Shown here: piece after piece, positions 2,783-46,263 of the stretch | Position numbering within the stretch: the first letter of the stretch is position 1 | Layout: the number at the start of each line of letters is the position of its first letter | DNA from: Nanobdellota archaeon | GTDB lineage: Archaea > Nanobdellota > Nanobdellia > Woesearchaeales > GW2011-AR9 | DNA length: 46,263 nt | Reading direction: 5' to 3' | Assembly (NCBI GenBank): GCA_030647325.1 | Contig: JAUSJN010000011.1 | Location: forward strand, 1 to 46,263 | Notes under the pieces: generated by a model | Database searches by the model: none | What the model was told of the DNA's origin: nothing | Seen by the model: the letters and a program-made list of their open reading frames with translations, nothing else | Program-made: the position numbers and the translations under genes

Positions 2783-4060
2783 ATGACCACTTTCCATGTC
2801 CTAACTGCAGGATGTTCGACCAACCAGTCCGATGCGGAGCAGATGGCAGGATTGCTGAAACAAGCGAAATTTGAGTTGGTGGAAAAGATCGAGGATGCGG
2901 ATGTGGTGGTGTTCAATACCTGCGCCGTCAAGACGCCCAGCGAGAATCCGTTATTCACCCAACTAGACCAATTCAAAAAAGATCATCCTTACAAGATAGC
3001 GGTCATCTCCGGCTGCATCGCTCCGGCTGACAAGCAGAGATTGAAAGATTATTCTTTGATCGGCACAAAGCAGATCCACCATATCGTGCAGGTGGTGGAA
3101 GAAGCTCTGCATGATAATGTATTGCAATTGCTGAACCATGATGAGATGCCACCGCTGAATCTACCAAAAGTGCGCAAAAATCCTCTGGTGGAGATCCTGC
3201 CCATCAATCGTGGATGCCTTGATGCATATGCCGCTTTCGGCAAGGGTAAAAAAGCGCAGGGAAAGATAATCTCATATCCGGCAGCAGCGATCGTTGAAGC
3301 GGCAACAAAAGCGGTCAAAGAAGGAGTGAAAGAGATCTGGCTGACTTCACGAGATGCATTTGGTTATGGATCTGAGATAGGGACAGACTTACCGGCCTTA
3401 CTGAAGCAAGTGGTGCAGATTCCCGGAGATTTCAAGATACGCATCGACATGGGCAATCCTGGACACCTCTCCAAGATCAGCGCGAAATTGGTAGAGATAT
3501 ACAAGCATCCCAAGATATTCAAGTTTTTACATCTTCCGTTGCAGGCAGGACATGATGAGACGCTGAAAGCGATGCGTCGGAGTTATACGGTGGAAGAATA
3601 TCTGCAGGCCATCTATCTATTCAAAAGAGAGATCCCTGAGATGAATATCATAACTGATATCATGGTCGGTTATCCCACAGAAACAGACGATCATTACTGG
3701 GGAACCTTGGAAGTGGTGCGCAAAACGACACCTGATTCAATCAATATCTCCCGTTTTGGGCCAAGACCGGATATGCCAGCGACGCAGCTTCCTGGATTAC
3801 CGGAGGAAGTGGTCCAGCATCGCTGCAAAGTTTTAACAGATATATTTCATAATGCTTCTAAGATCCAGAATGAACGCTGGCTGGATTGGAAAGGAGAGAT
3901 CCTGATCGATGAAAAGGGCCGCGAGTCAGGACAATGGATGGGCCGGAATAATTCCTACAAACAGATCATTGTAGAAGGAGATTTCAAGTTAGGAGATATG
4001 TTACAGGTGCAGATCGTGAAAGCGGAAACCTTTGATCTAAGAGGAAAAGTGGTAAGTTGA
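2783..4060 (+). CDS. MiaB/CDKAL1-family tRNA methylthiotransferase homologue with degenerate radical-SAM motif
   Basis: UPF0004 cysteines (GCSTNQSD, NTCAVKTP, SGCIAPADK), radical-SAM core (FLHLPLQAGHDETLKAMRRSYTVEEY, TDIMVGYPTETDDHY) and TRAM-like C-terminus; GCLDAYAAFGKGKKAQG in place of GCLxxCxxC. Confidence 0.9.
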   Translation: MTTFHVLTAGCSTNQSDAEQMAGLLKQAKFELVEKIEDADVVVFNTCAVKTPSENPLFTQLDQFKKDHPYKIAVISGCIAPADKQRLKDYSLIGTKQIHHIVQVVEEALHDNVLQLLNHDEMPPLNLPKVRKNPLVEILPINRGCLDAYAAFGKGKKAQGKIISYPAAAIVEAATKAVKEGVKEIWLTSRDAFGYGSEIGTDLPALLKQVVQIPGDFKIRIDMGNPGHLSKISAKLVEIYKHPKIFKFLHLPLQAGHDETLKAMRRSYTVEEYLQAIYLFKREIPEMNIITDIMVGYPTETDDHYWGTLEVVRKTTPDSINISRFGPRPDMPATQLPGLPEEVVQHRCKVLTDIFHNASKIQNERWLDWKGEILIDEKGRESGQWMGRNNSYKQIIVEGDFKLGDMLQVQIVKAETFDLRGKVVS

Positions 4061-4078
4061 TCTAACAACTTAAACATT

Positions 4079-4651
4079 CTATTTTCCCATCTCTTCTTCT
4101 ATTTCTTTCATGATCTCTTCTTCCTTCATGGAAGGAAGTTTTTTTCCCTGGTATGACTGGAGTAGATTCTTGACCTGCCCGTACATATATGCGGTGTCAC
4201 CGACTAATTGGCGGGTATATCCTTCTTCCAGGGGAAATTTGTAAAAATACTTATGGATCACTCCCTTAAGAAAAAAAGGTAATGGTTTGGTTCCCCAGCG
4301 CCCTTCGTAATTAGTTAAAGACCAGGCGTCAAAAGTGATAAGAGCGTCGCCTTGCTGAAATTTTTGCTTTATTCCGGAAACTTCCTTCACCGTTTCAGTG
4401 ACATTGTCTAAGGCAAGATGAATCTTGATCATCAAGGAGATATACTGAGAGACGCTCTTCACCGGCCGTAATTCCAATTCCAATACCCTTCCGGCGGGAG
4501 TCACTAATTCTTCGCTTTTCTTTTCCAGGTAGCTATACTTTTTTTCCTGGAGCGCTTTCCTGATCACGGAAAGAAGTTCGTCAGTGCGGAAAATACCATG
4601 ATAGGTGATTTTCTTCTGATTGATGACCAGATTTTTTTCAGTCATATTCAT
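4079..4651 (-). CDS. Hypothetical protein, paralogue family A (190 aa)
   Basis: ORF; similar to 4648..5160 and 9297..9824 (ITYHGIFRTDEL, WGTKPLPFFL). Confidence 0.7.
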   Translation of the reverse strand: MNMTEKNLVINQKKITYHGIFRTDELLSVIRKALQEKKYSYLEKKSEELVTPAGRVLELELRPVKSVSQYISLMIKIHLALDNVTETVKEVSGIKQKFQQGDALITFDAWSLTNYEGRWGTKPLPFFLKGVIHKYFYKFPLEEGYTRQLVGDTAYMYGQVKNLLQSYQGKKLPSMKEEEIMKEIEEEMGK

Positions 4652-5160
4652 CTCCCATAGGCGTGGGTGAAGGAATTAAGATAGGATTTTATCTTGTAGT
4701 GGAGATCTTCCACATCCGCCCTGACCCAGGTCTCAGCTTTATGATAATGTTCTTTAAAGAAATATTTCTCAAAGAGCATGCTCAGGTACCAATACAAGGG
4801 CTTTTCGCCCCATTTGTTCTTGCGGTCGCTGATGACATAGCCGTCGAAAATCATGCGCACCGTCCCCTGGCCGGTCCTGATGACCGACTTATCCGCCTGC
4901 ACATCGACCTCTTTAAGATCAGCCACGTTTATCTTTATGGAAATGATGAGTTTGTAATAATCGCTGATATTTTTCCATGGTTCCAGGATGATATGCATCT
5001 GCTTTCCGGAGGGCGTGACAATAACCTGGTTCATCTTTTCATACCAGTCATAGCCCTTTTCGTAAAAGAAGGAAGAGACAAGGTTGTGCAGCTCATCAAA
5101 ATTGAAGAGCCCTTCATGGGTAAGTTTCAATCGATCCACAATCAGATAGCGTTCAACCAT
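4648..5160 (-). CDS. Hypothetical protein, paralogue family A (170 aa)
   Basis: ORF; LTHEGLFNFDELHNLVSSFFYEKGYDWYEK; 4-nt overlap with the downstream paralogue. Confidence 0.7.
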   Translation of the reverse strand: MVERYLIVDRLKLTHEGLFNFDELHNLVSSFFYEKGYDWYEKMNQVIVTPSGKQMHIILEPWKNISDYYKLIISIKINVADLKEVDVQADKSVIRTGQGTVRMIFDGYVISDRKNKWGEKPLYWYLSMLFEKYFFKEHYHKAETWVRADVEDLHYKIKSYLNSFTHAYGR

Positions 5161-6042: not shown

Positions 6043-6432
6043 ATGGTTACGTTTAAGTTTGTTCCATACTACGAAATCGAAGGTCTTTCTTCAGCTAAAA
6101 GAGTGAATAAACTGCTCAAGATCGTCAAGGAAGATAAGATCGTGATCATGGAAGGAAGACTGCGCAAGCAGGAAGAAGCAGACTTGATCGAGATAACCAT
6201 GGAAGAGATTTCTCCCAAGTTTAAGGGCATAGAATTAAGCGTCATCTATCCAGACAAGGACAAGCAGGATATCAGGCAGAAACTGAGAGGGATGATGGCC
6301 AGCACTATACTAGGCGACCGGCAAGGACTTACTATCGTAGGCCCGGCTTCAATAGTTAAGAAGATTGAGAATAATCCGGATAAGATTGAATTATTTACCC
6401 GGGAAAATCGGGCCAAGATGAGGAAGAGATAG
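6043..6432 (+). CDS. DUF2073 family protein
   Basis: Archaeal DUF2073-like sequence (MEGRLRKQEEADLIEITMEEISPKFKGIEL) directly downstream of the GTPase. Confidence 0.8.
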   Translation: MVTFKFVPYYEIEGLSSAKRVNKLLKIVKEDKIVIMEGRLRKQEEADLIEITMEEISPKFKGIELSVIYPDKDKQDIRQKLRGMMASTILGDRQGLTIVGPASIVKKIENNPDKIELFTRENRAKMRKR

Positions 6433-6493
6433 TTCTGATGTATATAGTCCTTTATAGAAACCTATAAATATAGTAAAATCTAAGAAAGTGAGC

Positions 6494-6898
6494 ATGCCAC
6501 ATCAATGTGTCCGTTGTAACACTTTCTATCCTGACGGAGCGGCAGAGATTCTGAAGGGGTGCACTTGTGGAGCAAGGTTGTTTTTCTACATCAAGAAGAA
6601 AGATGTTGAGTATGGTAAAGAATTGTTGACCAACTTAACCGAAGAAGATAAGATCAATATCGAAAAAGACGTGGCGGAAGTGTTAGAGATACGCCATCAA
6701 TCTGACGATGCACCAGTGGTATTGGATCTGGAATCCATCCGTGTGGTAAAGCCAGGCAAGTTTGAGATTGATTTAGTGCATCTATTCAAGAAAGATCCGT
6801 TAATCATCAAATTAGAGGAAGGAAAGTACATGATCGATCTTCCCCAGGCTTTTAAGAAAGCGAAGGAAGACAGCGAAGGAGAGAAGGAAAAGAGATAG
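6494..6898 (+). CDS. Zn-ribbon protein of the GTPase-DUF2073 cluster (OapC/ArvC-type)
   Basis: CVRCNTFYPDGAAEILKGCTCGARLFFYIKK zinc ribbon; conserved archaeal gene order. Confidence 0.75.
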   Translation: MPHQCVRCNTFYPDGAAEILKGCTCGARLFFYIKKKDVEYGKELLTNLTEEDKINIEKDVAEVLEIRHQSDDAPVVLDLESIRVVKPGKFEIDLVHLFKKDPLIIKLEEGKYMIDLPQAFKKAKEDSEGEKEKR

Positions 6899-45557: not shown

Positions 45558-45600
45558 CCTAAAAAGGCTGACTTATTAGGCAGGGACACCACTTTTTAGG
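45558..45600. repeat. 9-bp inverted repeat flanking the transposase stop codon (candidate IS end)
   Basis: CCTAAAAAG (45558..45566) and CTTTTTAGG (45592..45600). Confidence 0.45.
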
Positions 45601-46263
45601 CAGGTTTCTGGATTGTAGCCGAGTTCGTTCATTTCGTGGATTACGCAAACTATGTTGTGGCATATGACTTTGCATAAGACCTCGTTCACTTGTGCAGTCC
45701 AGCTCTTGCTTCTTACATTATCGCCGAACTTGCTTTTTATCATGAACACTGTGCTTTCTGCATTACTGCGTTGGTGGTAGTGTGTCATGAACTCATCGTT
45801 GTTCAGGCTAAAGTAGTGATACATCTTTTTCCAAATCGCTACACCCGCAGGTCTGGGAGTGCTGTTAGACTTGAATGGAATGTAGGGCGTTGCTCCTGCT
45901 TCCGCTATCAAGTTCAGGTTCTCTCTGCTAAGATATGCTTTGTCAGCAGTTATTTCTGCCATGTCAAAGTTCTCTGCTGTTTGGGCGACGAGTGCCTTTA
46001 GTTCTGGGCTATCGTTGTCAAACTCAGTTGTTACCTTAACTGAAGTTATGATGTTTGATTTTACTCCAGTCATGAAGTGGCACTTAACCCAACGCCTACT
46101 ACTTAGTTCTCTACCGTGCTTGAAACTAAACCACCTCTGAAAATTACCAGTTCCAAAGCCCGTGCTATCAATAGCAAAGTTCCTTTCCACCGTTGATAAT
46201 GGAAGGCTTGTTATCTGCACGAGTTGAGCTAATAAGGGCGTTAGTTCTTTCTTTTTGAAATAG
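45576..46263 (-). mobile_element. IS5-like DDE transposase, N-terminal part beyond the window edge
   Basis: FAIDSTGFGTG, ITADKAYLSREN, YHQRSNAESTVFMIKSKFGD (D, D, E); frame stays open to 46263. Confidence 0.85.

Follow-up and report, generated by a model that had tools for sequence, protein, structure and literature searches.

A probable pseudoenzyme among archaeal t6A methylthiotransferase homologues and the recurrent loss of cluster ligands in its Woesearchaeota family

Of the archaeal and eukaryotic e-MtaB methylthiotransferases (MJ0867, MA1153; CDKAL1), the characterised archaeal enzymes produce ms2t6A/ms2hn6A by radical-SAM chemistry, and in Methanosarcina the deletion of the archaeal enzyme was tolerated, with moderately slower growth (PMC10702137). 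The MiaB protein of Pseudomonas aeruginosa reportedly affects gene regulation in a way that does not depend on its modification of tRNA (PMC9754610), which is a precedent for a modification-independent function of a methylthiotransferase (MTTase), from a bacterium and from another subfamily than the protein described here. Because of these two reports, a release from catalysis is plausible. No described MTTase pseudoenzyme was found in the open-licence literature. A catalytically dead partner of an enzyme, kept for a non-catalytic role, is represented by QTRT2 of tRNA-guanine transglycosylase; however, QTRT2 is a paralogue with an active partner, whereas the protein considered here was the only copy found and has itself lost the catalytic site.

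The window, which is the whole analysed stretch of 46,263 nucleotides, contained an open frame of 425 amino acids at 2783-4060 on the forward strand, without an internal stop (this and all positions below are on the forward strand unless stated). The earlier note had taken it for a full-length MTTase homologue, and this was confirmed by the domain searches. The N-terminal MTTase (UPF0004) domain was matched at 2792-3049 (PF00919, E 3.6e-21, residues 4-89), the radical-SAM barrel at 3251-3712 (PF04055, residues 157-310) and the TRAM domain at 3896-4054 (PF01938, E 9.6e-9, residues 372-424). The barrel match began at residue 157, just past the motif position. The NCBIfam model of the archaeal/eukaryotic t6A37 methylthiotransferase, TIGR01578, was matched over residues 5-424 with 361.9 bits, the curated cut-off being 314.7 bits. 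By its sequence, the protein is an archaeal t6A methylthiotransferase homologue, and it shares with e-MtaB the full-length homology, the three-domain layout and the auxiliary cysteines. Unlike e-MtaB, it has no second and third radical-SAM ligand.

Alignment confirmed that the three auxiliary-cluster cysteines were retained, namely Cys11 (codon at 2813-2815), Cys47 (2921-2923) and Cys78 (3014-3016). The first radical-SAM cysteine, Cys145, was also kept (3215-3217). The segment expected to read CxxxCxxC was G144-C145-L-D-A-Y149-A-A-F152-G153, with Tyr149 (3227-3229) and Phe152 (3236-3238) at C+4 and C+7, the second and third cysteine positions in intact relatives, just as the earlier note had read it. 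The multiple alignment places a gap within the motif, by which Ala and Gly fall into the ligand columns; the ungapped reading gives Tyr and Phe. Two of the three ligands of the [4Fe-4S] SAM site of active radical SAM enzymes were thus missing, and with them the CX3CX2C motif that is a trait of the TIGR01578 family. The loop that had surrounded the cluster (residues 146-160, 3218-3262) was one codon longer than in relatives, owing to an in-frame insertion of 3 nt. Companion changes were found at positions 190, 198, 222, 294 and 331. The odd neighbouring positions that had been pointed out before were real: residue 190 was Arg instead of the Gln found in 44 of 46 intact sequences, and residue 222 was Asp instead of the Gly present in 105 of 106. 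Since the TIGR01578 cut-off was passed without the catalytic motif, the name methylthiotransferase that automatic annotation gives this protein is likely a misannotation, and tRNA-modification predictions for these archaea would therefore err.

The structure was modelled by AlphaFold2 on a 48-sequence family alignment, and the same sequence set was used for the congener G002, which has an intact cluster motif. The model of the window protein had a mean pLDDT of 90.3 and a pTM of 0.89. Its only stretch with pLDDT below 50 was residues 146-160, where disorder was predicted, whereas the G002 model had no such stretch; the means over two blocks of the loop were 76 and 66 for G002 versus 59 and 36 for the window protein. 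The best PDB fold matches of the model were MiaB structures 7mjz and 7mjv (TM 0.89). MiaB (7mjv-7mjz) and RimO (4jc0), which were the nearest solved structures by sequence, share the predicted fold at TM 0.85-0.91 but are only about 23-25% identical, and the radical-SAM cluster site was absent from the window protein. In the model, the MiaB fold is retained and the cluster site is gone. With the ligands missing and the loop predicted to be disordered, no radical-SAM [4Fe-4S] cluster would be bound and ms2t6A would not be made, while the MTTase domain, the radical-SAM barrel and the TRAM domain should still fold. Judged by sequence and model, the protein has very probably lost the capacity for methylthiolation by radical-SAM chemistry.

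Three possible causes of the change were considered within the genome itself. The source assembly comprised 0.96 Mb and was 90.4% complete. It held one UPF0004 gene, and a search for a second intact MTTase, suggested earlier, found none in the assembled genome, from which about 10% is missing; replacement by a second MTTase was rejected for the assembled part, while a copy may lie in the missing part. An unseen second copy is unlikely as a general explanation, because none was present in the near-complete genomes G018 (2 contigs), G011, G069 and G016, the copies of which are eroded. Intact radical-SAM motifs were retained in three other proteins of the same genome, a TYW1-like (CANRCTFC), an Elp3-like (CPHGKCTFC; both labels given by sequence resemblance) and a further one (CKVGKCSFC), and the loss of Fe-S assembly was rejected as the cause. 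The t6A synthase gene TsaD/Kae1 was present in the genome, and the loss of the t6A substrate was rejected as well. Hence the change is explained neither by a failing Fe-S supply nor by a missing substrate.

Further, the ligands were surveyed in the GTDB family of the window's genome, with 51 genomes and 45 usable MTTase copies, some of them cut by contig ends. All compared genomes were MAGs, and the related loci with named records came mostly from Candidatus Woesearchaeota. None of the relatives shared the CxxxYxxF motif, for which the earlier note had proposed to look in them. The congener G002 (76% identical to the window protein) had all six ligands, and G001 (75% identical) kept CxxxCxxC and had instead lost the auxiliary Cys11 and Cys47. 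At least one cluster ligand was lost in 13 of the 45 copies, the lost combination varying by lineage (e.g., CCC|SCY, S-C|CCP, RCC|CSS and NCC|CFL). A fourteenth eroded copy, that of G015, had all six cysteines in eroded surroundings with a deletion. Among 98 primary copies sampled from the rest of the order, low-scoring ones included, 97 had all six cysteines. The difference between 13/45 and 1/98 gave a Fisher p of 8e-7, with related genomes not being independent. This recurrence of catalytic-ligand loss across one archaeal family is the main point beyond the earlier note.

Confinement of the loss to this family was not absolute. In f16, another family of the order, an eroded second MTTase copy lay beside an intact one at L175 (G172), L176 (G213) and L178 (G194), and such second copies shared an insertion of the IWRSSLPELL type. 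The only MTTase copy of G228 (L167, f16) had none of the six cysteines.

The independence of the losses was assessed on a maximum-likelihood tree made without the ligand columns. Eight changes were required, of which at least six were forced by well-supported branches, with long branches making the exact placement of some eroded rows uncertain. A single clade of ligand-less copies was rejected (p-AU 1e-35), and, alongside the tree, the differing identities of the lost ligands argued for independent loss. Intact and eroded copies alike followed prefoldin-like and FtsY-like genes, which in the window occupy 538-2237, were named by resemblance and mark the ancestral MTTase locus. Because both kinds of copies occupy the same neighbourhood, erosion took place in situ in most cases; G017 was an exception, in which the ancestral place was occupied by the eroded copy and the intact one lay at a different locus. 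The spread of one ancient inactive paralogue through the family was ruled out by the tree, the AU test and the shared synteny.

To examine the constraint on eroded copies, losses were counted over the 55 positions that were conserved among 106 intact sequences, deletion gaps being scored as losses. The variance of losses over sites was 9.5, versus a mean of 2.2 and a maximum of 4.1 in shuffles, and 11 sites were never lost, versus 0.9 expected from the shuffles. K50, M223, R266 and R328 were lost most often (10/12 each), followed by V49 and C11 (9/12), and the loss-prone positions were mostly those of the motif and the active site. The sites never lost were G77, C78, S164, I170, Y195, L206, P298, E300, R347, Y392 and L419. 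Residues new to the family were retained too: T2, E121 and P123 in all 14 eroded copies and E364 in 12/12. E121 and P123 belong to the linker EMPPLNLP (residues 121-128, 3143-3166). Each of the 12 full-length eroded copies still had a recognisable TRAM domain, but the mean net charge of this C-terminal part fell from +2.3 to +0.5. The eroded copies converge in the loss of the active site and retain the fold and the family-specific residues.

Cys78, in a GC pair at the end of the strand 72-78, was kept in 14/14 eroded copies, while other auxiliary ligands were often lost. This third auxiliary cysteine may serve the structure of the protein or some other purpose.

The combination expected of a functional pseudoenzyme, catalytic residues lost and the remainder under purifying selection, is strongly indicated for the family and may hold for the window copy. 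We proposed that the window protein is probably a catalytically dead pseudoenzyme that selection has maintained for a task without catalysis, a reading that is best supported chiefly because of the family pattern. In this task it would most likely act at the t6A step as a scaffold that binds RNA or a partner. The proposal of the earlier note that this is a non-catalytic protein rather than a decaying one was favoured by the evidence, and its tRNA-binding part stands as a putative property suggested by the domain content. Because the TRAM part loses net charge in eroded copies, the binding of a protein is no less plausible than that of RNA; the same loss of charge was counted against a pure RNA-binding role. 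In this Woesearchaeota family the second role seems old, since different ligands were lost independently while the frame, the fold and linker residues and mostly the FtsY-like locus were kept. A fuller scenario was put forward tentatively, as one slightly easier to doubt than to accept: an early cluster-independent second function (E121/P123 linker, E364/N357) would have freed catalysis, and at least six lineages would have turned the enzyme into a pseudoenzyme, mostly at the original locus. If true, such recurrent conversion would imply, for a widespread Fe-S enzyme of tRNA modification, that MTTases have a role beyond methylthiolation, and the eroded copies would be natural mutants separating the two roles.

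The window copy itself was counted against the pseudoenzyme reading, since it looks early-stage: it retains V49, K50, M223, R266 and R328, and its branch omega of 0.13 was above the background of 0.038 (2ΔlnL 9.2, codon models with saturated synonymous sites). A rival reading is a young pseudogene: the genus would recently have stopped needing the methylthio group, and the gene would be drifting, its frame open only because little time had passed. The raised omega fits such a course, as does the complete absence of the MTTase gene from some family members. In addition, the otherwise intact G002 carried T188A, Q190H, I294M and A333V at conserved barrel positions, which, together with the losses in G001, suggests a genus-wide slackening of constraint. 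However, omega = 1 was rejected for the window branch (2ΔlnL 5.9), and the three congeners, 25% apart in protein sequence, had zero stops or frameshifts; the check for neutral rates or broken frames, named earlier as what would point to simple decay, thus spoke for constraint. The omegas of single congeners were 0.09 for the intact G002 and 0.08 for the window copy, and the MTTase gene had diverged to much the same extent as the FtsY-like gene beside it. Among deeply eroded relatives, the frames were open across branches of 0.6-1.8 amino-acid changes per site, the latter being the upper value for end branches, when in a neutral simulation a frame this long rarely survived 0.05-0.1 substitutions per site and almost none lasted beyond ~0.1. 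Hence the window copy displays neither the stops and frameshifts nor the omega near 1 of a decaying pseudogene, and we regard this explanation as unlikely. The window copy is under constraint; because synonymous sites are saturated, selection before and after the loss is inseparable in it, and part or all of this constraint may predate the ligand loss.

It was also considered that the protein might be another enzyme or a sulfur carrier, in which the auxiliary [4Fe-4S] cluster would bind polysulfide or SAM for non-radical chemistry and the radical cluster would be superfluous. In this copy, the auxiliary cysteines were indeed all kept, as were N14, V49 and K50 next to them. A different use of the remaining cluster, raised in the earlier note, is thus possible for the window copy but fails for relatives without auxiliary ligands: related eroded copies, G001 included, had lost these ligands instead, and barrel positions of the window copy were altered (Q190R, G222D). 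This makes such an activity quite improbable. An assembly or consensus artefact at the codon cluster, conceivable for a metagenome source, is hardly credible, because several codons and the in-frame insertion differ, which makes chance or a simple read error unlikely, the companion positions changed as well, and like losses occurred in a dozen independent assemblies.

On the reverse strand at 4079-5160, two tandem related proteins of 190 and 170 aa without a Pfam match were encoded, and many members of the family had this pair conserved next to their MTTase gene. Adjacent OapB and OapC genes (origin-associated proteins by Pfam) were located at 6043-6898 on the forward strand, and their order near the MTTase locus was conserved in relatives. 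A DDE transposase (PF01609) was encoded at the contig end, at 45576-46220 on the reverse strand.
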